From the NCBI GenBank assembly GCA_030524545.1, contig JAUNGM010000026.1, positions 14,232-50,044 of the forward strand: a DNA stretch of 35,813 nucleotides, given 5' to 3'. The notes beneath the pieces were generated by a model. That model ran no database searches. It worked only from the letters and a program-made list of their open reading frames with translations, and was not told the origin of the DNA. The number at the start of each line of letters is the position of its first letter. The stretch's first letter is position 1. Below, piece by piece: positions 8,875-29,678 of this stretch. The translations under genes were made by a program, and so were the position numbers. The stretch is from Eubacteriales bacterium. Its GTDB lineage: Bacteria > Bacillota > Clostridia > Lachnospirales > Lachnospiraceae.

Positions 8875-8900
8875 TTTTTCAGTTCCTCCTTTAAATTAGA

Positions 8901-8929
8901 TCAGAAAAACCCGGGATATCCTGGTTTTT
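8901..8929 (-). terminator. Second hairpin between the T-box terminator and metG
   Basis: GAAAAACC at one side pairs with GGTTTTTC at the other, closing around the palindromic GGATATCC with a one-base bulge. On the minus strand the 3' arm ends GGGTTTTTCTG, so it resembles an intrinsic terminator placed after the T-box terminator and just before the ribosome binding site. It may be an additional attenuator or an mRNA-stabilising stem. Confidence 0.4.
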
Positions 8930-8933
8930 CAGA

Positions 8934-9310
8934 TAAAAAAACGCCCTCTCTGGATTTAATCAGAGAAGACGAGCAAAACCCGTGTTACCACTTCTGTTCA
9001 TTCCTGCCTCACGGTCAGGAACCTCATCAGGTACGAATCACCCGGCATTCTCTGTTCCGCCAGTACGGGAACATATTCAAATACACTCAGGTTCTTGATA
9101 CCCTTCCGCTGTAACAGGCGGTCCTGTCGCGGCCTACTCCTTCTTTCAGCAGCGCCTCTCCGAAGCCATCTTCCATCTGCTCCATACATATCCCTCTCAG
9201 CCTGGGAATCCAGCAGGATTCCGCCGGGGATTTCTCTGTAATGCGGTACGCATATGTACTCTCTTCTTCCACGAGTTTTTCCTTTTTCTGACAGGTTATA
9301 CCTGTCACAT
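8934..9310 (-). promoter_or_regulatory. T-box leader of metG with intrinsic terminator
   Basis: The leader carries the T-box core AAGTGGTAACACGGG (about 8978-8993 on the minus strand), whose UGGU bulge can pair with the ACCA end of uncharged tRNA. It is followed by the competing terminator, CGTCTTCTCTG paired with CAGAGAGGGCG plus seven T (8934-8971). Upstream, an AGAGAG motif, a GAATCC/GGATTC hairpin and a GGAGTAGG segment fit Stem I and following stems. Several ATG triplets lie where the Met specifier should be (for instance GGATATGTATGG near 9190), but I could not fix which one is used. Uncharged tRNA-Met should favour read-through into metG. Confidence 0.9.
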
Positions 9311-9316
9311 GATGAA

Positions 9317-9345
9317 ATAGTAGCATATTTTTCCGGTTTTGTAAA
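9317..9345 (-). promoter_or_regulatory. metG promoter
   Basis: TTTACA (9340-9345) and TACTAT (9317-9322) are 17 bp apart on the minus strand. The first transcribed bases would include a perfect hairpin, GACAGG/CCTGTC around TATAA (9290-9306), ahead of the T-box. Confidence 0.7.
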
Positions 9346-9409
9346 CCCGCAGTTTTTGTTTGTGCTTTTTGTTTGTTGTATCTGTTTGTATGGTGTAAAC
9401 CGGATATTT

Positions 9410-9449
9410 TTAAGCCTGCCCGTACCGCATCAGTACAGGGCAGGCTTAA
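9410..9449. terminator. Strong hairpin at the end of the surface operon
   Basis: TTAAGCCTGCCC (9410-9421) and GGGCAGGCTTAA (9438-9449) form a perfect 12-bp stem, with an inner GTAC/GTAC pair. It sits 46 bp past the last operon gene. Neither side has a clean T tract, so it could be a stabilising 3' end rather than a classical terminator. Nothing else is recognisable in 9346-9495. Confidence 0.45.
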
Positions 9450-9495
9450 GCTTTATATCTCTATTTACCGCTATCTGCCACACACCAGCATGGTT

Positions 9496-10410
9496 TTATC
9501 TGCTCATTACCCCAAGCACAATTTCTTTGCCATTTTTATCTTTAAACAGGCTGACAATAAAACGAGAATAATACAGAAGAAGGTCTTTTCCATCTCCATA
9601 GCAGCTGTCGGACGTGATGGTCTTTTGAGGCTTACCAAGCAGCTTTCGAAGGGTCGATGCATTTGCTTTTTCCTTGGCTGCGGCACGCAGTTTATTGGTC
9701 GTTGTCATGTTCAGTCTCCCGTTGGAAGCAAATGCATAAAATTTATCATTGATGACATAGATACCGTTAATCATTCTCGCAGATGCATTAAACCCATAGT
9801 AATAAGAACCAATTTTTTTCACAGTCGGAACGTTGGTTCCGAACATATCGTACTTACCCTGATAAGCTGCACCGCTCTTTCCAAAATAGTATTTAATGCT
9901 GTACACTTTTTTTCCGGAACCTTGTATTTTTACGGTTTTAAACGTATTTACCGCCTTTTTGGCGCCTACATAATAATAATATTTCCCGTTTTCTTTTACA
10001 AGCCCGGTCATCTTACCTGTAGAAGAAGAAAATGTACGATAAACGCCATTGACCACATACGTCCCTTTCATCATCCTTCCAAGAGAATCGAATGCGTAAT
10101 AGGAACCGGAAATTTTCTTTAAAGCCGGTTTTGTAACGCCATTTACCTTTTTGCCTGCATAAGCTGCCCCATCTTTTCCAAAGTAATATCTGTATGTAAT
10201 TTTCTTTCCATTACTGGTCTTATTTACAGATTTCCATACATTTTTTACTTTTTTCCCTTTTACGTAATAGTAATATTTTCCGTTCTCTTTCTTTAGCCCG
10301 GTTTTCACAGCCGCAGCCTGTACCTGCACGGTACCGGTTTCCGAAATCACAGGTACCTGCACACACAGGAGGCACAAAATGACTGCCAGGATCCTTTTCC
10401 ACTTTTTCAT
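9496..10410 (-). CDS. Secreted protein with two binding-repeat units
   Basis: This 304-residue protein starts at the ATG 10408-10410 (MKKWKRILAV), which has GAGAGG 6 nt upstream; the frame opens 13 codons earlier without a good site. It has a signal peptide to about residue 33. Two long repeats follow (about 36-134 and 135-233), each beginning GL(K/V)KENGKYYYYV and containing YYFGK.GAAY, a choline/glucan-binding-like aromatic pattern. A conserved C-terminal block (234-304) contains LRKLLGKP and SCYGDGKD. No catalytic domain is visible. It is the last gene of the surface operon, 28 bp after a transglutaminase-like gene with the same repeat type. A cell-wall or polymer-binding role is inferred. 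Confidence 0.8.
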   Translation of the reverse strand: MKKWKRILAVILCLLCVQVPVISETGTVQVQAAAVKTGLKKENGKYYYYVKGKKVKNVWKSVNKTSNGKKITYRYYFGKDGAAYAGKKVNGVTKPALKKISGSYYAFDSLGRMMKGTYVVNGVYRTFSSSTGKMTGLVKENGKYYYYVGAKKAVNTFKTVKIQGSGKKVYSIKYYFGKSGAAYQGKYDMFGTNVPTVKKIGSYYYGFNASARMINGIYVINDKFYAFASNGRLNMTTTNKLRAAAKEKANASTLRKLLGKPQKTITSDSCYGDGKDLLLYYSRFIVSLFKDKNGKEIVLGVMSR

Positions 10411-10438
10411 ACTTACCTCTCTGATATGATCATCGTAT

Positions 10439-11233
10439 TTATAATTCAATATTTACAATTTTCTGAGTCTTGTAAATTTTTCCTTCCATTGCAGACCGTT
10501 TCTGCATATACCATTTCCCTTTGCGTAAAGTAGAAAATCTGGCTGCATTCGCATCAAAAGTATACCAGGTGCCGTTAATTTTGATTTCTACCCATCCGTG
10601 TGGCTGCCACTTCCTGGTATTAAAAGCATTGCTCGTTCCCCAGCAGATTCGTACCGGATAGCCGGTAACACGTTTTGCAAGAACGGCAAATGCTGCTGCA
10701 TAATGGTAGCAACTTCCCTTTTTCTTTACCAGCATCTGCTTGGCATAAGTATATTCCCAGCCCTTCTGGCCTTTAAATCCGATTACCCTGGCATAATTGC
10801 ATTTTTTCTGTACATAAGTAAACAGTTTTTTCAATGCTGCAGACTTACCGTCTTTTGCACTGACATTATTCTTGATGATTGCATCCATTTTATTCAGAAG
10901 GGTTTTGTCCATGGTTTTGGACTTTTTGTATACACCCTTAGAATCAAAATAGTAGGATTTACTTCCAATAGAATACCAGCCGGTCTTTGCTGCTCCGTCT
11001 GATCCAAAATAATATTTCTTTTTGCTGATTGTTTTCCAGCAATTTATCTGTTTCTTGCCTTTTACATAGTAGTATCTTTTTCCGTTCTTGGTTACCCATC
11101 CGGTTTTCTTTGCCGCTGCTGTTTTTGTTTCTGCAGTTATTTTCTTCCCTGCTGCCTGAACATTCTGTCCCCCGATACAGAAACAGAAAAGTAAAAGCAG
11201 CATCCCAAACAAAAACCCTTTTCTCTTTTTCAT
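10439..11233 (-). CDS. Secreted transglutaminase-like protein with binding repeats
   Basis: The 264-residue product has a signal peptide (to about 27). Short aromatic repeats follow at about 44-100 (GWVTKNGKRYYYVKGKK, YYFGSDGAAKTGW, YYFDSKG) resembling choline- or glucan-binding repeats. The C-terminal half is a transglutaminase-core domain with a complete triad: Cys175 in KGSCYHYAAAFAVLAKR, His212 in HGWVEI, and Asp227 in TFDANA. Such domains in bacteria act as crosslinking enzymes or as cysteine peptidases; substrate unknown. It sits 30 bp after a larger FN3/transglutaminase gene and 28 bp before the repeat protein, so it is probably cotranscribed. Confidence 0.85.
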   Translation of the reverse strand: MKKRKGFLFGMLLLLFCFCIGGQNVQAAGKKITAETKTAAAKKTGWVTKNGKRYYYVKGKKQINCWKTISKKKYYFGSDGAAKTGWYSIGSKSYYFDSKGVYKKSKTMDKTLLNKMDAIIKNNVSAKDGKSAALKKLFTYVQKKCNYARVIGFKGQKGWEYTYAKQMLVKKKGSCYHYAAAFAVLAKRVTGYPVRICWGTSNAFNTRKWQPHGWVEIKINGTWYTFDANAARFSTLRKGKWYMQKRSAMEGKIYKTQKIVNIEL

Positions 11234-11263
11234 ATAACGCTTTCCCCTTTCTTTAGTTTTGGC

Positions 11264-13273
11264 CTACTTAAACGGAACCGTTTTCTGTATCGTATGTTCA
11301 ATATCGTAACTTCCGTTTCCGTAAACTCCGCTGTACCAGCCTGCATATTGTGCTTCCGGATCATAATAGCCTCCGCCGATTCTTACCCAGCAATGGCGCG
11401 TCAGCCCGTCACTTGCACCGTCTCTGCTGCCGCTGACTCTTCCGCAGACAACCGATGGGGTGTATCCCACCTCGCTTGCCAGAGCTGCAAATGCACAGGC
11501 AAAACTATAGCAGTTCCCCCTTCCGGTAGCCAGCATATCCAACGCACATTCTTTCTGCCAGCCTGTTTTATCCAGATCCGGATACTTCGGCCAGTATTTG
11601 AAATTACTTTTTGATGTGACATATCTCCAGCATGCATAAAGCTTCTGAGAATTTGTCATGTTCTTGGTTGTAATACCCGCAAGAATACTCCTGGTCTTTT
11701 CTCTCAGTTTTGCATCCAGTACATCTGCTTCTGAAGGCCCCTGGATGTTCTTTCCTTTGGTATCATATAGACCTTTCGTCTTTCCAACAGTGGTGTAGGA
11801 GCGTACTGTATAGGTGTAAATCTTACCTGTAACAATGGGATAGCTCTTGGAAGATACATGGGTATAGCTCAGTGTATTCGCCCCTTTTACATTTGCAATC
11901 TGCTTCCAGTTTCCTTTTGCATCTTTTCTGTAAATAAGGTAGTTCGTTGCACCTGCTGCCTTCTTCCAGTTGATTTTAATCTTCCCAACAGTATCACCGC
12001 ATTCCACACTTACCAGTACAGGTTTGTTGGGAACTGCCTTCCCTTTGATTCCTGTATTGTTATAAGTGCCCTGTACCACACCGTTTCCGCTTTTCCGGTA
12101 TGCTTTGACCGTATATGTATAGGTAGTTCCTGTTTTTACCGGATACTTGGATGAGCCAGTATGAGTGAAAGAAGTTCCCGCAGCAGAACCAACCTTCTGC
12201 CACGACGATCCTGATTTCCTGTAAATATAATATCCGCTGGCTCCGGCCACCTTACTCCAGGTAATCTTCAGCTTATTATAAGCTACGGATGATACCTTCC
12301 CAAGTTTTGGAGCCGAGGGAACCGGGGCTGCAATTTTCCCTGTTTTATCACATCCGCTGACATAGCTTCCTTTGACTGCTTTTACAGTATAGGAATATTT
12401 TTTCCCGGTTACCAACGGGAATGTTTTCGAGGAGGTGTGTACTAAGCTGGTTCCCTTAATGCCGGATTTCAGCCTTTTCCATGATTTAATCGTATTCTCT
12501 TTATAATAGACAATATAAGACGTTGCACCCGGCACTGCCGTCCAGGTCACCTTAACGGAATTATAACCTGTGGAAGCTGCAGATTTCAGCTTCGGAGCAG
12601 CCGGAAGAATCTTATATTTCTTTTTAACCGTCCCCTCATACTCTCCGATACCTGTAATCTTTGCAGTTGCCATACCGATGCCGGAATTATTCAAATACTT
12701 CAGCGTATAATCCCGGTTCTCTACCAATGCCTGTGTACCGTTCTTTACTGCAACATTGGGCTTAACAGCCTTTCCTGCATAGGTTACGGAAGTTTTCATT
12801 GTAACCGTGCATTTCGATATATCCGTCTTCTCCTGCTGGTTTTCCTGATTATCATCCGGGTTTCCCTCATCCGTATCTTCCATGTCCGTCTCTTCTCCGC
12901 CGGCCTGGAATACTTCCATTTCCTCCGCATCAATCGGTCCTGCTGAATCATCCTCTATCTTCCCATGATCTTCTGTCTCTTCCTCAAGAATATCCATCTC
13001 TGGTTCATCCGGTAAAAATACTTCCGAATACGGCATTTCAGACATTTCCATCTCTGGTATTACCGTCTCAGTTTTCTCCGTATCCTGTACTGCAAAAACA
13101 GGTTCCTCAGCTTCCGGTTCTTCACATGCATCATCACTGCTGAAAAGAGCATCCTCTGGCATTACACTGACACCGAAGTCAGTTTCACCGCTGGAAAATT
13201 CTGCTCCGTAAGTTGTATTAACAGGTGTCAAGGCCATCAATGCACATAGTAATATTGCAATTCTTCTTTTCAT
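11264..13273 (-). CDS. Secreted FN3-transglutaminase-like protein
   Basis: I start this 669-residue protein at the ATG 13271-13273 (MKRRIAILLC), with AGGGAG 8 nt upstream. Order of parts: signal peptide (to about 23), acidic Glu/Asp-rich region (40-150), an Ig-like unit of the NRDYTLKY...GTVKKKYKI type (152-222), three fibronectin type III domains (225-316, 321-412, 416-509), and a C-terminal transglutaminase-like domain with Cys588 (GRGNCYSFACAF), His627 (RHCWVRI) and Asp638 (YYDPEA). It is a paralogue of the two upstream genes at 17219 and 19627 but lacks their leucine-rich region and is clearly diverged. A surface or extracellular crosslinking/peptidase role is inferred. Confidence 0.87.
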   Translation of the reverse strand: MKRRIAILLCALMALTPVNTTYGAEFSSGETDFGVSVMPEDALFSSDDACEEPEAEEPVFAVQDTEKTETVIPEMEMSEMPYSEVFLPDEPEMDILEEETEDHGKIEDDSAGPIDAEEMEVFQAGGEETDMEDTDEGNPDDNQENQQEKTDISKCTVTMKTSVTYAGKAVKPNVAVKNGTQALVENRDYTLKYLNNSGIGMATAKITGIGEYEGTVKKKYKILPAAPKLKSAASTGYNSVKVTWTAVPGATSYIVYYKENTIKSWKRLKSGIKGTSLVHTSSKTFPLVTGKKYSYTVKAVKGSYVSGCDKTGKIAAPVPSAPKLGKVSSVAYNKLKITWSKVAGASGYYIYRKSGSSWQKVGSAAGTSFTHTGSSKYPVKTGTTYTYTVKAYRKSGNGVVQGTYNNTGIKGKAVPNKPVLVSVECGDTVGKIKINWKKAAGATNYLIYRKDAKGNWKQIANVKGANTLSYTHVSSKSYPIVTGKIYTYTVRSYTTVGKTKGLYDTKGKNIQGPSEADVLDAKLREKTRSILAGITTKNMTNSQKLYACWRYVTSKSNFKYWPKYPDLDKTGWQKECALDMLATGRGNCYSFACAFAALASEVGYTPSVVCGRVSGSRDGASDGLTRHCWVRIGGGYYDPEAQYAGWYSGVYGNGSYDIEHTIQKTVPFK

Positions 13274-13294
13274 AAGCTTTCTCCCTATCTGCCG

Positions 13295-13328
13295 CAAAAG
13301 CCCGTCTCAACGCCGCCGCATAAGGGCT
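13295..13328 (-). terminator. Possible intra-operon hairpin/attenuator
   Basis: In the 102-bp gap between the SH3 gene and the FN3-transglutaminase gene, AGCCC pairs with GGGCT around a GC-rich 20-nt loop and is followed by TTTT on the minus strand. A second small hairpin, GGCTT/AAGCC, lies just upstream at 13341-13354. The stem is only five base pairs, so this is tentative; it may reduce transcription of the downstream genes. Confidence 0.3.
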
Positions 13329-13375
13329 GAAGTATCCATTGGCTTTTACAAGCCGTAATTGATTCGTATCTGATA

Positions 13376-14380
13376 TTAATATTCCTCGTATGCGACGCTT
13401 CCGTCAGAATATGTAATTTCATAATAACCGTGGCCGGAACCATCACAGTCATCATATGCCTGCCGGCTTACTTCTACCGGTTCGGTTGACTCCACCGGCT
13501 GCTCTGCCGGCTGCTCGGCCGGTTGTTCCGCCGGCTCCTCCTCTGGCTGTTCCGCTCGCAGCTCTGATGGCTCCTCTGTCTGTCCAGCCGGCTGTACCGG
13601 CTCCTGATATACAGGCTCTTCATAATAGGTCTGTGCCTGCGCTGCCTGTGCTGCTGCCTGAGCCGCTGCCGCTTCTGCAGCCGCTTTCTTTTCCTGTACA
13701 AGAGCATCCACTTTTGCTTTATCTTCTGTGATGTAGCTGTGGAATACATATCCGCTGATTCCGTCAGCTTCTACTTTAATCCATCCAGGAATGCTTGCAA
13801 CAGCTTTCCATTCTGCGCCAAGAGAAGTCACCTTCAAAGACTGGGATTCTTTGGAAGCTTCTTTTCTGACATTTACATCCGTTGTCACATACATGGTAAT
13901 TTCCTGTTCAAATGCTTTCTCTTCTGCTTTTTCAAGAGCTTCCTGCTCTTTGCCGTCAGCATCTTTGTATTTCACATAGAGGAAACCATATTCCTCTGCA
14001 ACAGATGGCTCTGTCCATTTATCCGGTGAGACATTTTCAAAGGTATGAACATTTCCCTCTTCATCTGTCAGCGCCAGATTCCAGATTTCCTCTGCTGCAT
14101 CGCCTTCCTGCTTTTCTGCTGCTTCCTGTTTTTTATACTCTGCGGAGAAATTTTTCTCTGTTTCATTTTTAATCGTGACTTCTCCTGATTCCAGGGTAAT
14201 CTTCACATCTTCGATTACTTTTTCTTCCTGTTCCGTACCTTCTGCAGTCTGCTCTGCCGGTACCTCTGTCACTGTTGCTTCTGCAGCAGACGCATCTGCT
14301 GCCCAAACTGCTGATGTGCTCATTCCTGCCGCAGACATTACGGTCATTGCCAATAAAATACTTACCATTTTTTTCTTCAT
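13376..14380 (-). CDS. Secreted SH3-domain protein with Pro/Glu/Gln tail
   Basis: The 334-residue product has a signal peptide cut near AVWA-AD (about 28) and a Glu/Lys-rich N-terminal domain of unknown type (50-155). A bacterial SH3 domain follows (about 160-217, with VTTDVNVRKEAS and GWIKVEADGISGYVF), a fold that usually binds peptidoglycan. After an Ala-rich helix (230-250) comes a tail with repeated EQPAEQPAEQP units and a C-terminal block DCDGSGHGYYEITYSDGS. Its start overlaps the stop of the AlgX-like gene by four bases, so it is translated with the acetylation genes. No enzyme motif is seen; a wall-anchoring or accessory role is inferred. Confidence 0.82.
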   Translation of the reverse strand: MKKKMVSILLAMTVMSAAGMSTSAVWAADASAAEATVTEVPAEQTAEGTEQEEKVIEDVKITLESGEVTIKNETEKNFSAEYKKQEAAEKQEGDAAEEIWNLALTDEEGNVHTFENVSPDKWTEPSVAEEYGFLYVKYKDADGKEQEALEKAEEKAFEQEITMYVTTDVNVRKEASKESQSLKVTSLGAEWKAVASIPGWIKVEADGISGYVFHSYITEDKAKVDALVQEKKAAAEAAAAQAAAQAAQAQTYYEEPVYQEPVQPAGQTEEPSELRAEQPEEEPAEQPAEQPAEQPVESTEPVEVSRQAYDDCDGSGHGYYEITYSDGSVAYEEY

Positions 14381-15795
14381 TTGATTACTTCCTCCTGAAT
14401 CTGTTGATTTGATATAATTTTCATGGTTGTACCATCTCTTACCATTACTTCTGCCGTTACCGGCCCCTCCTGAAGCTTCTCTGCTCCCAGATACAGGCAG
14501 AATCCTCCATCATCTGCCGTATCCTCTGACTCTACATTCATAGGAAATGCCTCATACACAGAGGTACCATTTATACGCAAATAAATTTCTGAATCTGTTT
14601 CCAGATACTCTGGCAGCACTGCACCTGTAATCTGAATCAGCATTCCCTGGCTCTTCATTTCTATATGTGAGATACCGTTATCTGCTGTTTCCGTAATCTC
14701 ACCATCCCAGACAATAGTGCTTCCCTGAAGAACCGGCGGCGCCTCTGCCATTTCCGGCAAAAAGCGCTCTGCTCTTTCTATTACAACCGCATCTGCCTGA
14801 TAAGTTTCCACATCGCTGAGCTGATACGGAACTCCTCTGGAGAAATAAGCGCTTCCATAGGCTTCCGCCATAAATGGAAGAAGCGTATTTCCGAAAGAAT
14901 CCCGATACATCACAAGACTTCCGTCTTTTTCTGCACTTGCAGTGTTGATGCGTGGGTCAAAATTACTTTCTACTTCCTGAACATAGGTAAAGTCCGGCTC
15001 TCTTTCATAATAAATTTCGTCTTCCAGGGTCAGCGCCTCCGGATAAAGCATCTTGTCCAGATCCCCTGCAAAATCTTTCCGCACTTCAAAAGCTTCTTCT
15101 TCATAAGAAACATGTTCTTTACCCAATGCAGTCAATATCTGATCACTCGCCAATGCCGCACCTTTATTATTCCAATGCGAATCCCTGCTATGATACAGAA
15201 CTTCCGTCTGATTCCGGAATGTCTCATAAAGATCCGTATAATTCACACCTTCCTCTTCAAGATATGGCTGCAATCTTTTCAGATTGTTTTCATCTGTAAT
15301 TCTGACGCTGTCATAATACGGCATATGTTCTCCGTATAATGAATTTTTATTAGGGGCTATCGTAAAGACAAAATCCACACCCCGCTGCTCCAGATTTCTC
15401 TGCGTCATGCCAAGTGTATGAGCAATATTAAAAAGGCTTCTTTCTGACAAAAGGTCTGTTCCAAGATAGTCAGCAAGGGAGTCTTTATAGTAGAGCCAGC
15501 CATCGCTGCCCTGTATCACTCCCGAGGCTGTCGATACTCCGAGAATCTTCCCCTGTACCAGGGCATTCGCTGTTACCAGCTTACTTCGGAATGCAAAATG
15601 ATCCTGAAAATAGTCTCCCGCTTGGGAAAGCCATTCTGTGTTAAATTCCCCTTCTTCCGTACGAAGTACAGGAAATTCCGCAAGCCTGCGGTTCTCTGCA
15701 GTCGTATCCTCTTCCTGACTCTGAAGCATTCCGGCAAACGGACACAGGCAGACCGCAAAAAAGCAGGCACAATAAAGTAAACTCCATTTTTTCAT
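14377..15795 (-). CDS. AlgX/AlgJ-like (DHHW family) SGNH O-acetyltransferase-like protein
   Basis: This 472-residue protein has an N-terminal signal/anchor (1-24) and an extracellular SGNH-fold domain of the AlgX/DHHW group. The likely catalytic set is visible: Asp205 and His207 in RDSHWNNKG, and Ser300 in MYRDSFGN. The N-terminal ENRRLAEFP and DYFQDHFAFR segments are typical. The last 110 residues form a probable beta-rich domain. Together with the MBOAT protein encoded 14 bp upstream it forms the known AlgI-AlgX type pair, in which the MBOAT passes acetyl groups across the membrane and the SGNH protein transfers them to a polymer. The acceptor here is unknown. Confidence 0.88.
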   Translation of the reverse strand: MKKWSLLYCACFFAVCLCPFAGMLQSQEEDTTAENRRLAEFPVLRTEEGEFNTEWLSQAGDYFQDHFAFRSKLVTANALVQGKILGVSTASGVIQGSDGWLYYKDSLADYLGTDLLSERSLFNIAHTLGMTQRNLEQRGVDFVFTIAPNKNSLYGEHMPYYDSVRITDENNLKRLQPYLEEEGVNYTDLYETFRNQTEVLYHSRDSHWNNKGAALASDQILTALGKEHVSYEEEAFEVRKDFAGDLDKMLYPEALTLEDEIYYEREPDFTYVQEVESNFDPRINTASAEKDGSLVMYRDSFGNTLLPFMAEAYGSAYFSRGVPYQLSDVETYQADAVVIERAERFLPEMAEAPPVLQGSTIVWDGEITETADNGISHIEMKSQGMLIQITGAVLPEYLETDSEIYLRINGTSVYEAFPMNVESEDTADDGGFCLYLGAEKLQEGPVTAEVMVRDGTTMKIISNQQIQEEVIK

Positions 15796-15809
15796 GCGAT
15801 AAGTCCCCC

Positions 15810-17204
15810 TTAAAACCGGAAATAAATAAATGGATTATATGTACCGCCTGCAAGATACAAAATGCAAAGTATCAGTCCTGCAAAACTCAGAATATAGGAT
15901 ACCGGCTCATATCCCCGTCTATTCTTCCATACATCTTTTACCGGTACTGAGGCAATCATCGCTGCCGCAAGTGTCAGCAGATACAGCGGAGTAAGCTGCT
16001 GTACCGCAAGGCTCATGGCTGCCGGATGCTTCCCAAAGCCCGTAAACATCATTTTCAGCCAGAAAACGCCTCTGGACATGGTTTCTGTCCGGAAAAAGAC
16101 AAAGCCCACAGCTACCACCAACAGTGCATAAATCCTCTGCATACAGCCTTTCAGACGTCCGCCTTTACGGCCGATCGCCGGTATGTATTCCTCCAGAAGC
16201 AGGAAACAGCCATGGTAAACACCCCAGAATACAAAATTCCAGGAAGCCCCATGCCAAATGCCTGTGCAGAGGAAAACAATCATTTTATTTACAACGGTCC
16301 GAAGTTTTCCTTTACGGTTGCCTCCAAGCGGAATATAGAGATATTCCCGAAACCACCCGGAAAGAGACATATGCCATCTTCGCCAAAATTCCTTAATGCT
16401 TCCGGATATGTATGGGTAATTAAAGTTCTCTTTAAAATGGAACCCAAACATCCATCCAATCCCGATCGCCATATCACTGTATCCGCTGAAATCAAAATAA
16501 ATCTGCAGCACATAAGAAATAATGGCAATCCACGCCACAACCCAGTTGACCTCCGACTCTTTGGCCGCAAATAAAATATCTGCCGTAAGGCCAAGGGTGT
16601 TGGCCAACAATACTTTTTTACTCAATCCGGCAATAAAACGCCGGATTCCATGTGTAACTCCTTCCAGGGTCTGGGCCCTCTGATTAATTTCCATCTCCAC
16701 ATCATGATATTTAACGATAGGACCCGCAATCAACTGAGGGAAGAAGGATATATACAGCAAAACTTTCCAAAAACTCTTCTGCCGCTCCGTAACTTCACGG
16801 TAAACGTCAACTACATAGGACATTGCCTGGAACGTAAAGAACGAAATTCCGATCGGCATCCGGATATCCGGTACAGGAACAGTCATCCCCGCCAGGGAAT
16901 TCCATGATTCCACGAGAAAACCGGCATATTTATAAAGAATCAGGACTCCCAGATTTCCCGCTATGGTGATGAACAGCGTTATCTTTTTATACTGATGCCA
17001 GCGGCTGATAGCACCTGCACACATATAATTAAAGAACGCCGATGCGATCAGCAGGAGTACATATACCGGCTCACCATACGCATAAAAGATCAGGCTTGCC
17101 AAAATCAGCAATGCATTTTTTGCCCTGATTCCCGGCAAAATACAATGAAGTCCAAAAACCACGGGCAGAAAAACACATAAAAATATCATTGAACTGAAAA
17201 CCAT
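15810..17204 (-). CDS. AlgI-type MBOAT O-acyltransferase
   Basis: The product is a 464-residue multi-pass membrane protein of the AlgI/PatA MBOAT group. Seen in the sequence are SLIFYAYGEP near residue 38, MPIGISFFTFQAMSYVVDVYR (116-136), FFPQLIAGPIV (154-164), YFDFSGYSDMAIG (236-248), FWRRWHMSLS and the catalytic His318 in TGIWHGASWNF. It should move acetyl groups from the cytoplasm to the outside for an SGNH partner, encoded next. The start follows the upstream stop by 14 bp, and the stop codon's TGAGG serves in its ribosome binding site, so it is coupled to the surface-protein genes. Target polymer unknown. Confidence 0.93.
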   Translation of the reverse strand: MVFSSMIFLCVFLPVVFGLHCILPGIRAKNALLILASLIFYAYGEPVYVLLLIASAFFNYMCAGAISRWHQYKKITLFITIAGNLGVLILYKYAGFLVESWNSLAGMTVPVPDIRMPIGISFFTFQAMSYVVDVYREVTERQKSFWKVLLYISFFPQLIAGPIVKYHDVEMEINQRAQTLEGVTHGIRRFIAGLSKKVLLANTLGLTADILFAAKESEVNWVVAWIAIISYVLQIYFDFSGYSDMAIGIGWMFGFHFKENFNYPYISGSIKEFWRRWHMSLSGWFREYLYIPLGGNRKGKLRTVVNKMIVFLCTGIWHGASWNFVFWGVYHGCFLLLEEYIPAIGRKGGRLKGCMQRIYALLVVAVGFVFFRTETMSRGVFWLKMMFTGFGKHPAAMSLAVQQLTPLYLLTLAAAMIASVPVKDVWKNRRGYEPVSYILSFAGLILCILYLAGGTYNPFIYFRF

Positions 17205-17218
17205 ATTTCACTCAAACC

Positions 17219-19558
17219 TCAAAATTTTGTTATTTGGCTGGAAGTATAAGACATCGGAGATCTTGCTACTCCCATTTTATTTCCCATGTTGTCCCAATAT
17301 CCTCCGTTTATCCGCACAAAGCAATGAACCTTCGGAATTTCAATTACATACGGCTCATAGCCCAGCTCCCTGGCAAGCGCAGCAAAGCCATGGGCAAAAC
17401 CATAACAATTTCCTGCCTCTGTTGTCAGGATATCCATTGCGCATTTCGTTCTCCAGCCCTCTTTGGTTGTATCAGGGAACGCCCACGGATGAAAATCTGT
17501 TGCCATAATAAAATACCAGCAGGCCCGTAATTTCTGATCCTGAGTCATACCAGGCGTTGTTACCCTGTTAATCACTTCCTGTGCTTTTTTTCTCAGTTGT
17601 GCGTCCGCTACGGCGGCTGCAGTCACAGCTTTCACAGTTTTTCCCTTTGTATCATAAAGTCCTTTGGTTTTTCCGGTCGTTGTATAAGAACGAACCGTAT
17701 ACGTATAGGTCTTTCCTTCGACGATCGGGAATTTTTTCGATGATACATGAGTATAGCCTATCATCTTGGCACCTTTTACATTGGCAACCTGTTCCCAGTT
17801 TCCTTTGGAATTTTTCCGGTAGATCAGATAATTCGTTGCGCCTGCCGCCTTTTTCCAGCGTATTGTGATCTTCCCTACATCCGTACATTCCGCACTGATC
17901 AGAACAGGCTTATCAGGGACTGTCTTTCCCTTGATGCCGGTTCTGCTGCAGCTGCCTGTAGCAACCGTTTTTCCGGTCTTTCGGTATGCCTTGACCGTAT
18001 AGGTATAAGTAGTTCCTGTCTTTATAGGGAATTTGCTGCTGCCCGTGTGGGTAAAAGACGTTCCCGTTGTACTTCCCACTTTTTTCCAGGTATTCCCGGA
18101 TTTTCTGTAGACATAATAACCGCTGGCGCCTGCTGCCTTGCTCCAGGTGATCTTCAGCTTATTATAGGCTGCTGATTTCACTGTTCCAAGCTTTACGGCC
18201 GTAAGCGACGGGATTGCACTTTTTCCGGTCTTATCACAACTGCTGATTGTTTTGCCGTTGACTGCCTTTACCGTATAGGCATATTTCTTTCCCGTCACAA
18301 GAGGAAAAGAGGTTGATGAGGTATGCTTATAGCTCGTTCCCGTAATTCCGGATTTCAGTTTTTTCCACGACTTGGCCGTGTTTCCTTTATAATAGATCGT
18401 ATACGACTTCGCACCCGGCACCTTCTTCCAGGTCACCTTTACGGAACGGTAGCTTGCTGATGCTGCTGAGACCAGCTTAGGTGCCGCCAGGGTGATTTTG
18501 AATGCCTTACTGACAGTCCCTTCATAATTTCCCTTGCCTGTAACTGTCACTGTCGCTGTTCCGGGATCCACATTATTCTTATACTTCACCGTATAATCCC
18601 GGCCGGATACGAGCACCTGTTTCCCCTTGCTCACTTTCACTGCCGGTTTCAGCGCTTTGCCTGTACACGTCTTGGAAGCTGCTACGCTCACACTGCAGGA
18701 AGCGATATCTGTTTTCTTTATCTCAGGCTCCAGTAATTCATATGGAAGCTTCTGTTCTTCCGCATACTGCTGTGCATAAGTTCCGGCATAACAGTAAAGG
18801 ACAAGCTGCGGGCAGGATGCAAACGCATTTTCGCCGATCTCTGACACTGCAGCAGGCAATTCTATTTTTTTAAGAGCGGCGCATCCGGAAAACGCCTCTG
18901 CTCCAATAGATTTCAAACCTGCCGGAAGCGTGATCCCGCTGAGATCACTCCCCATAAATGCCTTCTCACAGATTCCTGTTACCGTGTATTCTCCTATCCG
19001 CTCCGGTATTACTACTGTCTCCGCACTCCCCAGATAACTAACGATCACAGCTTCTGTCCCATTGACCATATACCGGAAGGTCTCCGTGGTGAAAATCCCG
19101 GAAGCCTGCTCACCTGCGGTAAAGATATCCGCTTCTTCTATCTCCATTTCTGTATAATCGCCATAATCTGTCTCATCTGAAAAAATATCAATATCTGCTG
19201 CTTCGTCCGGCTGTTCTTCCGGTAACCGCTCTTCCGGCGATTGCTCTTCCGGCGGTTCTTCCGGTAACTGCTCTTCCGGTGATTGTTCTTCCGGCGGTTC
19301 TGTCTCCTCTCCGATGTTATTCGGGATTTCTTCTTCATCAGGAAACAGGGTTACTTCCGGATTCACACTCTCTGAATATTCACCGGACACCGGAATCTCA
19401 TCCATCACCGCATCTTCACTGCTGAAAAAAACATTTTCCATTGCTTCGCCGGCCGCAGACTCCTGCTGCCCGCTGGAAAAATCCGCGCCATAAACTATCG
19501 GCAAAGGTTCCGCTGCCATAAAAAAAACGAGGGCCATTGCCAAAGTCTTCTTTTTCAT
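17219..19558 (-). CDS. Secreted BspA-LRR/FN3/transglutaminase-like protein, copy A
   Basis: The 779-residue protein has a signal peptide (to about 24) and an acidic region with PEEQSPEEQLPEE-type repeats (75-150). A BspA-type leucine-rich region follows (165-275), then an Ig-like unit (284-357), three FN3 domains (359-448, 455-545, 549-640) and a C-terminal transglutaminase-like domain with Cys718 (AGNCYGFAHGF), His745 (VHCFVRI) and Asp756 (YWDNMG). Residues 37-602 are identical by eye to the upstream copy B, while the catalytic domains are unrelated beyond the fold. AAGGAG lies 11 nt before the start. It is second in the operon, 68 bp behind copy B and 14 bp before the MBOAT gene. Confidence 0.87.
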   Translation of the reverse strand: MKKKTLAMALVFFMAAEPLPIVYGADFSSGQQESAAGEAMENVFFSSEDAVMDEIPVSGEYSESVNPEVTLFPDEEEIPNNIGEETEPPEEQSPEEQLPEEPPEEQSPEERLPEEQPDEAADIDIFSDETDYGDYTEMEIEEADIFTAGEQASGIFTTETFRYMVNGTEAVIVSYLGSAETVVIPERIGEYTVTGICEKAFMGSDLSGITLPAGLKSIGAEAFSGCAALKKIELPAAVSEIGENAFASCPQLVLYCYAGTYAQQYAEEQKLPYELLEPEIKKTDIASCSVSVAASKTCTGKALKPAVKVSKGKQVLVSGRDYTVKYKNNVDPGTATVTVTGKGNYEGTVSKAFKITLAAPKLVSAASASYRSVKVTWKKVPGAKSYTIYYKGNTAKSWKKLKSGITGTSYKHTSSTSFPLVTGKKYAYTVKAVNGKTISSCDKTGKSAIPSLTAVKLGTVKSAAYNKLKITWSKAAGASGYYVYRKSGNTWKKVGSTTGTSFTHTGSSKFPIKTGTTYTYTVKAYRKTGKTVATGSCSRTGIKGKTVPDKPVLISAECTDVGKITIRWKKAAGATNYLIYRKNSKGNWEQVANVKGAKMIGYTHVSSKKFPIVEGKTYTYTVRSYTTTGKTKGLYDTKGKTVKAVTAAAVADAQLRKKAQEVINRVTTPGMTQDQKLRACWYFIMATDFHPWAFPDTTKEGWRTKCAMDILTTEAGNCYGFAHGFAALARELGYEPYVIEIPKVHCFVRINGGYWDNMGNKMGVARSPMSYTSSQITKF

Positions 19559-19560
19559 AA
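17645..19560. repeat. Near-identical duplication, copy A
   Basis: This segment matches 20089-22004 at a constant offset of 2444 bp with no indels that I can see. Nearly all differences are at the two ends, in the signal-peptide codons and in the linker after the third FN3 domain. Confidence 0.9.
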
Positions 19561-19626
19561 TTACGCCTACTCCTTTTTTCTATATGATTGTATTTCAAAA
19601 ATTTTATCTCTTAACCCTATAAATTC

Positions 19627-22002
19627 TTATATTGCAATATGAAGTATTGCTGTAAGTTCATAGCTTCTATAAGATACACCATAATACCTATAATAGTTCT
19701 TTGCTTCTGCAAAAAGAGGATCATATACCAAACCGTCAATTTCCGCCCAGCTATGTGCCGTTCCCCATGTTCCGTCGGAATCTGCACAAACATATACGTT
19801 CTTGTATCCCAAAGCTTTAGCTAAATATGCAAATGCCGCTGCATCTGCCTGGCAGTTTCCTCCTCCCAATACAAAATGGTCGTTTGCATATACAGCAGGC
19901 CATCCGGGCGTGTTGACAAATTTCCTTCTTGTTATGTACGGTTTGGAAATTACCCAGTCAAAGCACGCTTTCAACTTCTGACTGCTGCTCATACCCGCAT
20001 TTGTAATTTGGGCCACAGTCTGTTTTGCACGCTCCAGTGTAGCTGCAGCTTCTGCCTCCGTTGCAGTTTGTGCCTTCACCTGTTTTCCCTGTGTATCATA
20101 AAGTCCTTTGGCTTTTCCGGTCGTTGTATAAGAACGAACCGTATACGTATAGGTCTTTCCTTCGACAATCGGGAATTTTTTCGATGATACATGAATATAG
20201 CCTATCATCTTGGCACCTTTTACATTGGCAACCTGTTCCCAGTTTCCTTTGGAATTTTTCCGGTAGATCAGATAATTCGTTGCGCCTGCCGCCTTTTTCC
20301 AGCGTATTGTGATCTTCCCTACATCCGTACATTCCGCACTGATCAGAACAGGCTTATCAGGGACTGTCTTTCCCTTGATGCCGGTTCTGCTGCAGCTGCC
20401 TGTAGCAACCGTTTTTCCGGTCTTTCGGTATGCCTTGACCGTATAGGTATAAGTAGTTCCTGTCTTTATAGGGAATTTGCTGCTGCCCGTGTGGGTAAAA
20501 GACGTTCCCGTTGTACTTCCCACTTTTTTCCAGGTATTCCCGGATTTTCTGTAGACATAATAACCGCTGGCGCCTGCTGCCTTGCTCCAGGTGATCTTCA
20601 GCTTATTATAGGCTGCTGATTTCACTGTTCCAAGCTTTACGGCCGTAAGCGACGGGATTGCACTTTTTCCGGTCTTATCACAACTGCTGATTGTTTTGCC
20701 GTTGACTGCCTTTACCGTATAGGCATATTTCTTTCCCGTCACAAGAGGAAAAGAGGTTGATGAGGTATGCTTATAGCTCGTTCCCGTAATTCCGGATTTC
20801 AGTTTTTTCCACGACTTGGCCGTGTTTCCTTTATAATAGATCGTATACGACTTCGCACCCGGCACCTTCTTCCAGGTCACCTTTACGGAACGGTAGCTTG
20901 CTGATGCTGCTGAGACCAGCTTAGGTGCCGCCAGGGTGATTTTGAATGCCTTACTGACAGTCCCTTCATAATTTCCCTTGCCTGTAACTGTCACTGTCGC
21001 TGTTCCGGGATCCACATTATTCTTATACTTCACCGTATAATCCCGGCCGGATACGAGCACCTGTTTCCCCTTGCTCACTTTCACTGCCGGTTTCAGCGCT
21101 TTGCCTGTACACGTCTTGGAAGCTGCTACGCTCACACTGCAGGAAGCGATATCTGTTTTCTTTATCTCAGGCTCCAGTAATTCATATGGAAGCTTCTGTT
21201 CTTCCGCATACTGCTGTGCATAAGTTCCGGCATAACAGTAAAGGACAAGCTGCGGGCAGGATGCAAACGCATTTTCGCCGATCTCTGACACTGCAGCAGG
21301 CAATTCTATTTTTTTAAGAGCGGCGCATCCGGAAAACGCCTCTGCTCCAATAGATTTCAAACCTGCCGGAAGCGTGATCCCGCTGAGATCACTCCCCATA
21401 AATGCCTTCTCACAGATTCCTGTTACCGTGTATTCTCCTATCCGCTCCGGTATTACTACTGTCTCCGCACTCCCCAGATAACTAACGATCACAGCTTCTG
21501 TCCCATTGACCATATACCGGAAGGTCTCCGTGGTGAAAATCCCGGAAGCCTGCTCACCTGCGGTAAAGATATCCGCTTCTTCTATCTCCATTTCTGTATA
21601 ATCGCCATAATCTGTCTCATCTGAAAAAATATCAATATCTGCTGCTTCGTCCGGCTGTTCTTCCGGTAACCGCTCTTCCGGCGATTGCTCTTCCGGCGGT
21701 TCTTCCGGTAACTGCTCTTCCGGTGATTGTTCTTCCGGCGGTTCTGTCTCCTCTCCGATGTTATTCGGGATTTCTTCTTCATCAGGAAACAGGGTTACTT
21801 CCGGATTCACACTCTCTGAATATTCACCGGACACCGGAATCTCATCCATCACCGCATCTTCACTGCTGAAAAAAACATTTTCCATTGCTTCGCCGGTCGC
21901 AGACTCCTGCTGCCCGCTGGAAAAATCCGCGCCATGAACTACCGACACAGATTCCGCTGCCATAAAAAAAACGAGGGCCATTGCCAAAGTCTTCTTCCTC
22001 AT
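19627..22002 (-). CDS. Secreted BspA-LRR/FN3/transglutaminase-like protein, copy B
   Basis: The start is the ATG 22000-22002 (MRKKTLAMAL, 791 residues) with GGAGG 5 nt upstream; the frame opens 11 codons earlier without a good site. The architecture equals copy A up to about residue 640: signal peptide, acidic PEEQ repeats, BspA-type leucine-rich region, Ig-like unit and three FN3 domains. The C-terminal domain is a different transglutaminase-like domain, with Cys717 in GGNCQADAAAFAYLAKALGY, His750 in AHSWAEI and Asp761 in VYDPLF. It is the first gene of the surface operon, about 60 nt behind a strong promoter with an adjoining palindrome and divergent from an XRE regulator. Confidence 0.87.
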   Translation of the reverse strand: MRKKTLAMALVFFMAAESVSVVHGADFSSGQQESATGEAMENVFFSSEDAVMDEIPVSGEYSESVNPEVTLFPDEEEIPNNIGEETEPPEEQSPEEQLPEEPPEEQSPEERLPEEQPDEAADIDIFSDETDYGDYTEMEIEEADIFTAGEQASGIFTTETFRYMVNGTEAVIVSYLGSAETVVIPERIGEYTVTGICEKAFMGSDLSGITLPAGLKSIGAEAFSGCAALKKIELPAAVSEIGENAFASCPQLVLYCYAGTYAQQYAEEQKLPYELLEPEIKKTDIASCSVSVAASKTCTGKALKPAVKVSKGKQVLVSGRDYTVKYKNNVDPGTATVTVTGKGNYEGTVSKAFKITLAAPKLVSAASASYRSVKVTWKKVPGAKSYTIYYKGNTAKSWKKLKSGITGTSYKHTSSTSFPLVTGKKYAYTVKAVNGKTISSCDKTGKSAIPSLTAVKLGTVKSAAYNKLKITWSKAAGASGYYVYRKSGNTWKKVGSTTGTSFTHTGSSKFPIKTGTTYTYTVKAYRKTGKTVATGSCSRTGIKGKTVPDKPVLISAECTDVGKITIRWKKAAGATNYLIYRKNSKGNWEQVANVKGAKMIGYIHVSSKKFPIVEGKTYTYTVRSYTTTGKAKGLYDTQGKQVKAQTATEAEAAATLERAKQTVAQITNAGMSSSQKLKACFDWVISKPYITRRKFVNTPGWPAVYANDHFVLGGGNCQADAAAFAYLAKALGYKNVYVCADSDGTWGTAHSWAEIDGLVYDPLFAEAKNYYRYYGVSYRSYELTAILHIAI

Positions 22003-22004
22003 AA
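20089..22004. repeat. Near-identical duplication, copy B
   Basis: Partner of 17645-19560. The encoded proteins differ at only 11 of the first 641 positions: 2, 18-21, 23, 36, 603, 631, 638 and 641. The stretch in between is unchanged. Downstream of each copy the sequences diverge completely into different catalytic domains. Confidence 0.9.
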
Positions 22005-22067
22005 TCTCCTCCATATCTTCCCGTACTTTCCTCAAAAATGCGATATTCCGGGCATTATCATCTATTA

Positions 22068-22096
22068 ATTATAGTTCTCCCAAAAGCAAAAGTCAA
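22068..22096 (-). promoter_or_regulatory. Promoter of the surface operon
   Basis: TTGACT (22091-22096) and TATAAT (22068-22073) lie exactly 17 bp apart on the minus strand, an almost ideal housekeeping promoter. Its -35 touches the palindrome at 22096-22107. Confidence 0.8.
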
Positions 22097-22148
22097 CTCT
22101 ATAGAGTATATCGTTTGATTCTATGGAACATTTTTAACATATCGATAT
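22096..22148. promoter_or_regulatory. Candidate operators between the XRE gene and the surface operon
   Basis: A perfect 12-bp palindrome ACTCTATAGAGT (22096-22107) abuts the operon -35. A related, imperfect site ATTCTATGGAAC (22118-22129) has its centre 22 bp away, about two helical turns. A third palindrome, ATATCGATAT (22139-22148), lies between the likely -35 and -10 of the regulator's own promoter, its centre a further 20 bp along. The layout suits a dimeric XRE repressor acting on both genes; binding itself is inference. Confidence 0.5.
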
Positions 22149-22158
22149 TTGCTACACT
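22130..22158 (+). promoter_or_regulatory. Likely promoter of the XRE regulator
   Basis: TGCTACACT (22150-22158) is an extended -10 element on the plus strand. The -35 region is poor (a T run near 22131), as often seen with extended -10 promoters. The palindrome ATATCGATAT lies inside the spacer. Confidence 0.45.
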
Positions 22159-22195
22159 TAAAGCACACTACAAATAAAAAAGAAAGGATGGTTCC

Positions 22196-22561
22196 ATGGA
22201 ATTAGATAAAGATTATAATTTAATAGTAGGCTTACGAATAAGAGAAGTCCGGGAAGTCCTAAACATGACAAGAGAACAGTTCAGTGAAAAATGTGATATT
22301 TCCAGTAGTTTTCTATCCGCCGTTGAAAGCGGCAAAAAAGCGGTCACCTCTAAAACCCTATATAAAATCTGCAGCTCTATAGGCATCTCCGCTGACTACC
22401 TCATACGTGGAAAAAGCAAAAATTTTGAAACTGACATGGTAATTGAAATGATAGATTCCATGGATTCCAAATCCAAAAAACACGCTGTCCAGATTCTGCG
22501 GGAGTATATCGAAGCTGTCAATGATTTGAAAAATCCTGATGACAATCATATAATCTGCTGA
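22196..22561 (+). CDS. XRE-family helix-turn-helix regulator
   Basis: This 121-residue protein has a standard XRE/HTH_3 domain at about residues 9-66: LRIREVREVLNMTREQFSEK, then SSSFLSAVESGKKAVTSKTL, then ICSSIGISADYL. It ends with a short helical tail (EMIDSMDSKSKKHAVQILREYIEAV) that could make dimers. There is an AAAGGATGG ribosome binding site. It is transcribed away from the eight-gene surface operon, and the 193 bp between the two start codons hold both promoters and several palindromes. Control of the surface operon and of itself is therefore likely. Codon use looks more AT-rich than in the neighbouring genes. The ligand or partner is unknown. Confidence 0.88.
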   Translation: MELDKDYNLIVGLRIREVREVLNMTREQFSEKCDISSSFLSAVESGKKAVTSKTLYKICSSIGISADYLIRGKSKNFETDMVIEMIDSMDSKSKKHAVQILREYIEAVNDLKNPDDNHIIC

Positions 22562-22581
22562 AATAAATCACTCTTAAAGCC

Positions 22582-22632
22582 AAAAAAAAAGAGACGGACA
22601 TAAGATAATCTCATGCCCTCTCTTTCTTTTTG
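22582..22632. terminator. Bidirectional terminator
   Basis: AAAGAGACGG pairs with CCCTCTCTTT (one mismatch), with CAT/ATG pairing further in. Eight or more T follow on the minus strand and a TTTCTTTTT run on the plus strand. It lies between the convergent XRE and histidine kinase genes and can end both transcripts. Confidence 0.8.
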
Positions 22633-22699
22633 TATTGTACTTATTCTGCTTACCGCAGTCTTTTTTGGATACTCACTGCTTCAGACCTGTACAGCATCC

Positions 22700-29300: not shown

Positions 29301-29678
29301 TATCCGGACTTCCAGCGTTTTTCCGGCGCTTTTCTCCGGTATATCCACAAGATGCCATGGAGAACCGGGTGATTTCATAAACTTCGGCGCATTCTCTTCT
29401 CTTCCGTACTGATAGATCAGCATTCCGTCCAATCTCACCTCTGTCATCGTATGAGTGGTCTTAAATAAAACAGCTCCTGCCTCAGAAAAGTCATCAGGAA
29501 TCTCCATCGTATGAATCCGTATGCCATCTTCCATTGTCTCTATACTTTCCAGATTTGCAGTATTGCGCATCGGCAGAGGGCTTCCGGCAGTCCCTCCATG
29601 AAAAATCCATAATAAAAAAAGCAGTGCCACTCCAACAAAAACCACAAATGCCGCACTTAATCTTTTTCCGGTATTCAA
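26313..29678 (-). CDS. 7TM-GGDEF-PAS-(degenerate GGDEF)-EAL cyclic-di-GMP enzyme
   Basis: The 1121-residue membrane protein has an N-terminal membrane segment (8-27) and an extracellular beta domain (45-140). A 7TM-DISM-like block follows (about 150-365), then a GGDEF domain with an intact GGDEF motif at 460-464 and no RxxD inhibitory site. Next come a PAS-like domain (about 590-690) and a second GGDEF-type domain whose motif has become VADEF. The C-terminal EAL domain has its key residues: EALMR, NVS, ELTES, LALDDFGTG, IKIDRSFV, EGVES and QGYFWGKP. It could both make and break cyclic-di-GMP. The start is a TTG with AAAGGAG 10 nt upstream. It is monocistronic. Confidence 0.92.
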   Translation of the reverse strand: MNTGKRLSAAFVVFVGVALLFLLWIFHGGTAGSPLPMRNTANLESIETMEDGIRIHTMEIPDDFSEAGAVLFKTTHTMTEVRLDGMLIYQYGREENAPKFMKSPGSPWHLVDIPEKSAGKTLEVRIYPVYEGFYGNTGVFHLGTRAACVMELFVSFLPVLIINCIIVFAGVLSIFLHIATSRHRGKEEIGTFLNVGVFSLMIAVWSLCQCGFLQFLIPDGRTLYFVDFFSFYLFPVPFNLFVYDITRTKYRKGLLWMAGGYLANMAGALAVQCAGLIDIFRVLPVTHLLMAVNVLYVILLVRNEAQKNSNKDAGRFRFPLYIVMIFAAAELVMYYIRGFRETSVFLPLGTICFIVMLIWIQVIRYYGKVIEEEKLSYFKKLANIDMLTEALNRNAYENTVKYLEEKEIELQTTGVILVDVNEMKYINDNFGHEKGDEALKYCYQCICRCFGAEDRCFRIGGDEFAYVFHKNEKPDIEREIAAFEKLVDETGKNLPYPFSVAVGYACYNPDTDMDFQDIVRRSDTMMYRKKRRKKLMKADGTEEILDYIKKDLMKASQEELLLHQKKYQEISIEDLCEFINLLNPSTDDYLYVLDFRKDFYYIAPHALQRFLLDENAFHEVMEHHKRFVYAEDFGLLKEEFESLLSSDRCMHNMEYRWLDIDGKPVWINCRGCIVRDDDGKAMYMVGCINEIGIKQKADNVSGLLGESSLQAYLESMEPQFPDGYLMRLGIDNFKEINEKFGIEYGDMILHETAICISRCISQNQKIYKLVADEFMVLDFTGSSRADAEAMFDRIREALAQFVEDNGYAVIFTISGGILTCDSMVEHTYSNAMKFTEFSLNGAKSHGKNRCHLFRKEEYEAFLHRRELSRILRKSINQGFEGFQVYYQPLFRASDNSLYGAEALMRFDSEECGRVSPGEFIPILEETGLIIPAGRWILREALAACRKIRETVPDFEISVNVSHVQVSKTNMLLEIVSAVRDAGVPTSALIVELTESGLLEASRNAKMLWMDLHDLGIKLALDDFGTGYSNFHYLSELKPDIIKIDRSFVTKALENEEEYYLLFLLSSMTHNLKLKLCIEGVESEAEWARIRELLPDYSQGYFWGKPCSYETFTEQFVKPCEI

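Follow-up and report, generated by a model that had tools for sequence, protein, structure and literature searches.

Why should an enzyme pair for envelope O-acetylation be encoded in one block with four secreted proteins of the transglutaminase (TG) fold, and what would hold the two sets together? The question is raised by eight genes at positions 9496-22002 of a 35,813-bp stretch of a Lachnospiraceae genome (Eubacteriales bacterium, contig JAUNGM010000026.1), the whole of which is referred to here as the window. All eight lie on the minus strand, are designated A to H, and were verified by translation and Pfam scans. Gene starts were taken as those matching the coordinates of a preliminary description made from the DNA letters alone, whose account of eight same-strand genes with short gaps (-4 to 102 bp) was borne out: from A to H, the spacings are 68, 14, 14, -4, 102, 30 and 28 bp. 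The comparative evidence presented below supports a recurrent and specific association of acetylation and TG genes, and it brings forward a further element, the conserved C-terminal tail of protein E, which is a better candidate for what the two enzyme sets have in common than a shared polymer.

The acetylation pair consists of genes C and D. Gene C (15810-17204) encodes an MBOAT acyltransferase (PF03062, E 1e-31) whose closest solved relatives by profile comparison are DltB proteins, although its score of 165.6 against the DltB model falls below the cut-off of 375. It ends in the hexapeptide FIYFRF (codons 15813-15830), in agreement with the FXYXXF acyl shuttle, a motif that terminates 61 of the 62 MBOAT open reading frames (ORFs) found in 61 close named loci, the exception (L117) being a broken frame. 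In PatA, according to the available excerpts of PMC12148441, the tyrosine of a C-terminal FXYXXF carries the acetyl group and hands it to the SGNH partner. Adjoining C is gene D (14377-15795), a predicted SGNH O-acyltransferase of the PatB1/AlgX type with a hydrophobic N-terminus, for which ALGX is the best Pfam family (E 3e-21), DHHW is matched as well (E 9e-9), and the closest solved relative is PatB1 of Bacillus cereus (5v8d, E 4e-12), an AlgJ being also near. PatB1 is described, in excerpts of PMC9487903, as having a Ser-Asp-His triad and an oxyanion Arg located 22 residues past the Ser; in D, Ser300, Arg320, Asp205 and His207 are kept in 61, 60, 62 and 62 of 63 aligned rows, respectively. 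C and D combine the features of an MBOAT-SGNH envelope O-acyltransferase, namely an MBOAT with FXYXXF and an adjacent SGNH triad, and on these grounds acetyl transfer to a polymer is predicted.

The TG-fold proteins are encoded by genes A, B, F and G, export of the window proteins being predicted from N-termini judged by eye. A (19627-22002) carries LRR_5 and fn3 modules and a catalytic domain, TG1, at about 19630-20025; B (17219-19558) has a front similar to that of A and a different domain, TG2, at about 17222-17605; F (11264-13273) combines fn3 with TG3 (about 11267-11716), and G (10439-11233) choline-binding-type repeats with TG4 (about 10442-10921). The Pfam family Transglut_core is matched in A, B, F and G at E 6e-5, 8e-5, 1e-8 and 2e-15, the first two barely above the curated cut-off. 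The full Cys-His-Asp triads that the preliminary description had attributed to all four were confirmed in an alignment of a chosen set of 48 TG domains, the four from the window included, in which the three columns are invariant. In a full-length alignment of the four window proteins and 88 of 95 named TG frames, Cys and His are present in 92 of 92 rows and the Asp column holds in 57 of 92, the latter figure probably reflecting misalignment; Choline_bind_3 was found in 57 of these 92 proteins. The solved chains nearest to the TG domains by profile are 9crn (E 8e-8), for which a literature search yielded nothing, and 6g49 (E 5e-4), and it should be borne in mind that the fold includes proteases as well as transglutaminases. 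The last gene of the block, H (9496-10410), encodes an exported protein that matches the same repeats as G just below the cut-off (26.4 vs 27 bits), in a repeat part longer than in most orthologues, and ends in a conserved domain, HC (9499-9732), with the motif SCYGxGKD; no solved relative of HC was convincing in a structure-database search (best E 0.15). With H just under its cut-off, Pfam agrees with the earlier assignment of an MBOAT and AlgX/DHHW pair, an SH3 protein and a binding-repeat protein to the block.

The SH3 protein is E (13376-14380), an exported protein that matches only SH3_3 in Pfam and continues through an Ala/Glu-rich linker into a C-terminal tail of 34 residues, PVEVSRQAYDDCDGSGHGYYEITYSDGSVAYEEY (13379-13480). 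Ortholog alignments reveal a near-invariant consensus of about 30 residues, EVSRQxxDDCDGSGHGYYEITYSDGSxxYEEY, whereas E orthologues vary in length and linker and are alike at their ends. When the window protein was aligned with 45 of 46 named E proteins (omitting L089, which is cut by a contig end), column identity was 0.69 in the tail versus 0.31 in the rest of E, the best other 34-column stretch reaching 0.40. Across 32 chosen tails, His17, Gly18, Ser25, Asp26 and Gly27 are invariant, 31 have Cys12, and all 32 end in Tyr or Phe. The protein to which the tail is attached is usually of the SH3 kind (SH3_3 in 43 of 46 tail proteins scanned with Pfam). DUF348 was found in the tail protein of L221, with similar stretches seen by eye in L219 and several other family loci, and the smallest tail protein, in L248, is a 92-residue frame with little beyond a lipoprotein-like start and a linker. 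Among 50 tails in named loci, 33 adjoin ALGX, 10 adjoin MBOAT and 4 are fused to ALGX, the fusions (L111, L113, L114 and L130) placing the tail at the C-terminus of D via a flexible linker. One tail gene per genome is the rule, with two in the source genome and in G024; in the second copy of the source genome (contig C47, L153 8308-9423) Ser replaces the tail Cys, and tail genes in a similar position were seen in G024 (L182) and in G042 (L180, where the frame looks broken). As a known domain the tail could not be placed: Pfam and NCBIfam gave only weak matches, none above cut-off, and the PDB none below E 0.08. In particular, the cut-off of 24 bits of the NCBIfam model motif_MiiA (NF053582) was not reached in any of 21 genomes; 5 of 30 tails matched it at E <=0.1, the best at 19.1 bits (L098), and the window tail did not match. 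Neither the tail nor the 1.7-kb identity between A and B (see below) appears in the preliminary description.

Is the company of acetylation and TG genes peculiar to this genome? Strong homologues of D (E <1e-100) occur in 15 of 60 genomes of the genus, the source genome included. In the other 14, an MBOAT gene lies beside D in every case, the tail is present in all 14, and 13 have a TG gene as well; the genes are ordered and flanked differently from one genome to the next. The tail (E <1e-10) was found in 15 of 15 genus genomes with strong D versus 1 of the 45 others, that one being the apparently broken frame of G042; a match in G107 sits in an ABC transporter region and was dropped from the counts. 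A control set of 20, out of 33 weaker hits to D in the genus, was inspected in stretches of 5-20 kb: these distant MBOAT-AlgX pairs have MBOAT in 20 of 20 and TG or tail in 0 of 20. A D-alignment scan of 84,980 species genomes provided further loci, the best 80 of 104 relatives being analysed. Where D is at least 41% identical over the best segment (61 named loci), MBOAT is present in 61, the tail in 51 and a TG gene (<1e-10) in 51, with tail and TG both in 44 and neither in 3; at those with a 10-kb flank on each side, the figures are 22 of 24 for the tail and 21 of 24 for TG. In the 19 loci with more distant D (33-37%), MBOAT was found in 18, the tail in none and TG at <1e-10 in 2. Some contigs occur among both the named loci and the genus loci, so that the two counts are not independent, and, because this system was the source of the TG models, all counts could have overlooked distant TG genes. 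Conservation of the neighbourhood in relatives, which the preliminary description had put forward as a check, was thus seen for MBOAT, AlgX-like and TG genes alike (TG in 51 of 61 versus 0 of 20 in the control), and the survey supports a recurrent and specific association of acetylation and TG genes. On plasmids, only weak D matches were found, in 8 records and all below 60% identity. A group of loci from other Clostridia (L124-L129, L133 and L137) has distant MBOAT-AlgX genes, weak TG hits, mostly small HC-like proteins, and no tail; judged from these gene contents, they are possibly an older form of the system.

Starting from the tail rather than from D gives a comparable picture. A tail profile run on 397 genomes of the family was positive in 18, at 20 sites representing 19 genes, one gene being split over two contigs. 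Acetylation genes are in the same stretch as 15 of the 19 and TG genes as 16, with both at 13 and neither at 1, the latter being the orphan C47 gene of the source genome; L243 is counted with acetylation, AlgX alone being visible there before the contig end. A TG or AlgX gene lies within about 3 kb of the tail in 15 of 16 cases (in G927, TG is 2.8 kb away and AlgX 5 kb). Acetylation without TG near the tail was seen in G971 (short contigs) and G981, and TG without the pair in G267, G086 and G251; in the last two, the contig begins at the tail gene, and another contig has a strong D homologue at its edge. Further out, the tail was found in 10 of 295 genomes of the order, three of them from another family, in which two loci read MBOAT, AlgX, tail; in 4 of 291 genomes of the class, one of which, from a different order-level group, has the genes arranged as tail, TG, MBOAT, AlgX; and in a phylum sample (n=299) only in the source genome and a second member of its family. 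In one genus of this family (L222-L226), genes for a secreted protein with the motif YGKHxNEGG, for a TG protein and for a tail protein anchored in the membrane stand in a row, with a periplasmic-binding-protein gene next in 3 of 5 genomes; P1, a protein beside TG in this genus, was tried as a TG relative, which was not detectable (probability 0.3%).

The block itself may bear marks of recent change. A 1,701-bp run in A (20196-21896) is identical in B, the copies being 2,444 bp apart. The front parts of the two genes are 98% identical and their TG domains 27%, that of B being nearer to F's (43%), and L090 holds a second such pair (front 94% versus catalytic 47%). As far as can be judged from the sequences, this points to a recent duplication or gene conversion that kept the front and swapped the catalytic end; the A/B identity could possibly be an assembly artefact. 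Recombination between A and B would delete one gene. The block sits between a histidine kinase gene and metG (window 8874-22700), an interval that measures 548 bp in G009 and contains other genes in G053, G040, G020 and G021 (L204-L209), while in G024 about 10 kb of other genes separate the kinase from the block that follows it. Since the kinase-metG interval is variable in the genus, the block is accessory.

How might the products act? The explanation that we favor, and to which we give a little better than an even chance, is that the block is an accessory envelope-modification locus in which the pair acetylates a wall glycan and the tail of E serves as a hub for both enzyme sets. C would take acetyl from acetyl-CoA in the cytoplasm and load it onto the Tyr of its own FIYFRF end, and D would accept it on Ser300 and pass it to the wall glycan. 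E, tethered in the wall by its SH3 part, would display the tail on the flexible linker as the hub, or bait, to which the acetyltransferase and the TG-fold cysteine enzymes secreted along with it could dock. A, B, F and G, held at the wall by their repeat, fn3 or LRR modules, would then cut or join peptide bonds. The acetyl route would follow known chemistry, by analogy with known families and from the conserved residues; what we infer concerns the hub role, the place where both sets would act, the reaction of the cysteine enzymes and the identity of the acceptor. The hub role is suggested because the tail occurs with either enzyme set and in fusions to D. For the acceptor, the closest precedent would be a secondary wall polysaccharide, and it is possible, as the preliminary description proposed, that acetylation and TG enzymes act on one common target.

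Several observations weigh against the hub explanation. Tail and pair occur with no TG gene within 10 kb in L107, L109 and L112, and TG without tail, with full flanks, in L090 and L117, of which L117 is a broken copy. G031, a genome without strong D, has a partial, weak tail match (E 4e-4), which was not counted. Among the 19 loci with D below 41% identity, TG hits at E <=0.01 occur in 9 and HC-like proteins in 6; because these tail-less distant loci have such hits, the TG link appears to be independent of the tail, and the acetylation pair may have been associated with TG genes before the tail arose. The second tail gene of the source genome has no MBOAT or TG gene in the 20-kb stretch around it and is far from both sets. 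The four D-tail fusions may be one event, because the loci are similar. At position 7, 17 of the 32 chosen tails have Glu and 14 have Gln, which speaks against a simple Gln crosslinking substrate. Finally, in the genus of L222-L226 the tail follows directly after TG in 5 of 5 genomes with no pair nearby; these five are close relatives and count as one event, their variant tail is without the His and the final aromatic residue, D gives no match in 3 of 5 and a weak one in 2 (E 1e-6 and 3e-27), and at least two further genomes of the genus show no tail.

Could the tail instead belong to the acetylation machinery alone? It might be a third component of an acetyl relay, like DltX or AlgF, which passes acetyl or clamps the pair, the TG genes then being a separate wall-remodelling set that shares the promoter. 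Consistent with this, most tails in named loci adjoin or are fused to ALGX or adjoin MBOAT, L107, L109 and L112 have tail and pair without TG, and the smallest tail protein is short and anchored in a layout resembling that of DltX. The MBOAT, however, retains its own FXYXXF end, so that no relay peptide is missing, and the genus in which the tail stands beside TG has no pair nearby; we consider such a relay unlikely. That the tail replaces the acyl shuttle was rejected as a main explanation because of the same FXYXXF end. Alternatively, the tail may be a C-terminal attachment signal by which TG-fold transpeptidases join tail proteins to the acetylated polymer in a sortase-like manner, which would make the locus an equivalent of sortase anchoring that is based on transglutaminases and tied to O-acetylation. 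The position of the tail at the extreme C-terminus of varied proteins (SH3, DUF348/G5-like, lipoprotein-like, AlgX), the proximity of TG to 16 of 19 tail genes in an unbiased search, and its occurrence with TG and no pair in one genus would fit. Yet with usually one tail gene per genome such a system would have few clients, several tail proteins already look lipid- or membrane-anchored, and both the Gln/Glu variation at position 7 and the three loci without TG argue against it, so that we think it very unlikely. A sorting tag with many clients per genome is not supported by the copy number, and the Gln/Glu split led us to set aside the tail Gln as a crosslinking donor.

It could also be that the TG-fold proteins work as proteases, secreted to gain food or to attack other cells, and adjoin the acetylation genes only because both belong to the accessory surface genes that a single variable chromosomal site carries. 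The block does lie in the variable kinase-metG interval, near-empty in G009, and A and B have identical fronts with different catalytic ends, a pattern also seen in toxin families. However, the association recurs across genera despite changed order and flanks, the TG classes are conserved in sequence, the wall-binding modules suggest the cell's own surface, and there is no extra small gene between the TG genes as a candidate immunity gene; we regard this explanation as very unlikely.

The hub explanation can be set against systems already known. With PatA1/PatB1 of B. cereus, which O-acetylate the secondary cell wall polysaccharide (DHHW family), the locus shares an MBOAT and a permuted SGNH enzyme with Ser, Asp-x-His-Trp and an Arg about 20 residues past the Ser (PMC9487903, excerpts); it differs in that D has DSHW and RDS rather than TDHHW and KDS, and in the added TG genes and tail protein. 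The Pseudomonas AlgI/AlgJ/AlgX and AlgF system likewise joins an MBOAT, an AlgX-family enzyme and a further exported protein (same excerpts), whereas here E matches SH3_3 alone in Pfam and TG enzymes are present. C is DltB-like by sequence, which recalls the DltB/DltD/DltX system of teichoic acid D-alanylation, and the smallest tail proteins are similar in layout to DltX, a microprotein of the membrane whose C-terminus bears a conserved motif (PMC12148441, excerpts); in contrast to Dlt, C carries its own shuttle, and the tail motif is unlike FXYXXF. Among the 26 window ORFs scanned with Pfam, there was no polymer synthase, no S-layer/csaB gene, no alginate gene and no DltA, DltC or DltX, very short ORFs lying outside the scan. 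Transglut_core proteins (PF01841; 9crn, 6g49) have the same Cys-His-Asp triad as A, B, F and G, and the window proteins differ from them in being tied to an acetylation pair and to wall-binding modules. LPXTG is a C-terminal sorting signal of exported proteins, and the tail resembles it as a conserved signal at the C-terminus of an exported protein; E, however, ends in the tail itself, with no LPXTG, membrane helix or basic end following. Neither the tail nor the combination of acetylation and TG genes was found described in the papers and family libraries searched, in agreement with the earlier remark that the combination was not recognised as a described system.

As regards expression, the one strong promoter claimed in the preliminary description is present as a promoter-like site 5' of A (TTGACT-17-TATAAT, 22068-22096, minus strand; 11 of 12 consensus positions) and is one of two top scorers. 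The score alone is weak evidence, because the motif scan gave 45 sites in total versus 24.9 expected by shuffling, so that its position is more telling than its score; in addition, a 9/12 site lies inside the A-B gap. Terminators splitting the block had been named as evidence that would speak against one unit, and the terminator scan found no terminator-like site on the coding strand in any intergenic gap of the block. Terminator-like hairpins are present on the minus strand 3' of H (8942-8971; 11 pairs and a T run) and 5' of the block, past the histidine kinase gene (22596-22618). Next to the promoter-like site of A is a divergent helix-turn-helix gene (22196-22561, plus strand), a possible regulator, which had no homologue by blast in the other clusters of the genus. 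A large GGDEF-PAS-EAL protein (26313-29678) is encoded upstream of the two-component pair and might connect surface genes with c-di-GMP.

Blautia and its relatives among the Lachnospiraceae are common commensals of the gut, and little is known about the chemistry of their surface. For these organisms, the present analysis provides a concrete, recurrent locus linking wall O-acetylation with secreted cysteine enzymes, for which the likely acetyl route can be named by residue. The acetylation pair is of a known kind, the combination with TG genes and tail is newly noted, and the tail is a new lead. If the tail is indeed a recognition or attachment signal, it would represent a new mode of protein handling on the surface of Gram-positive bacteria.

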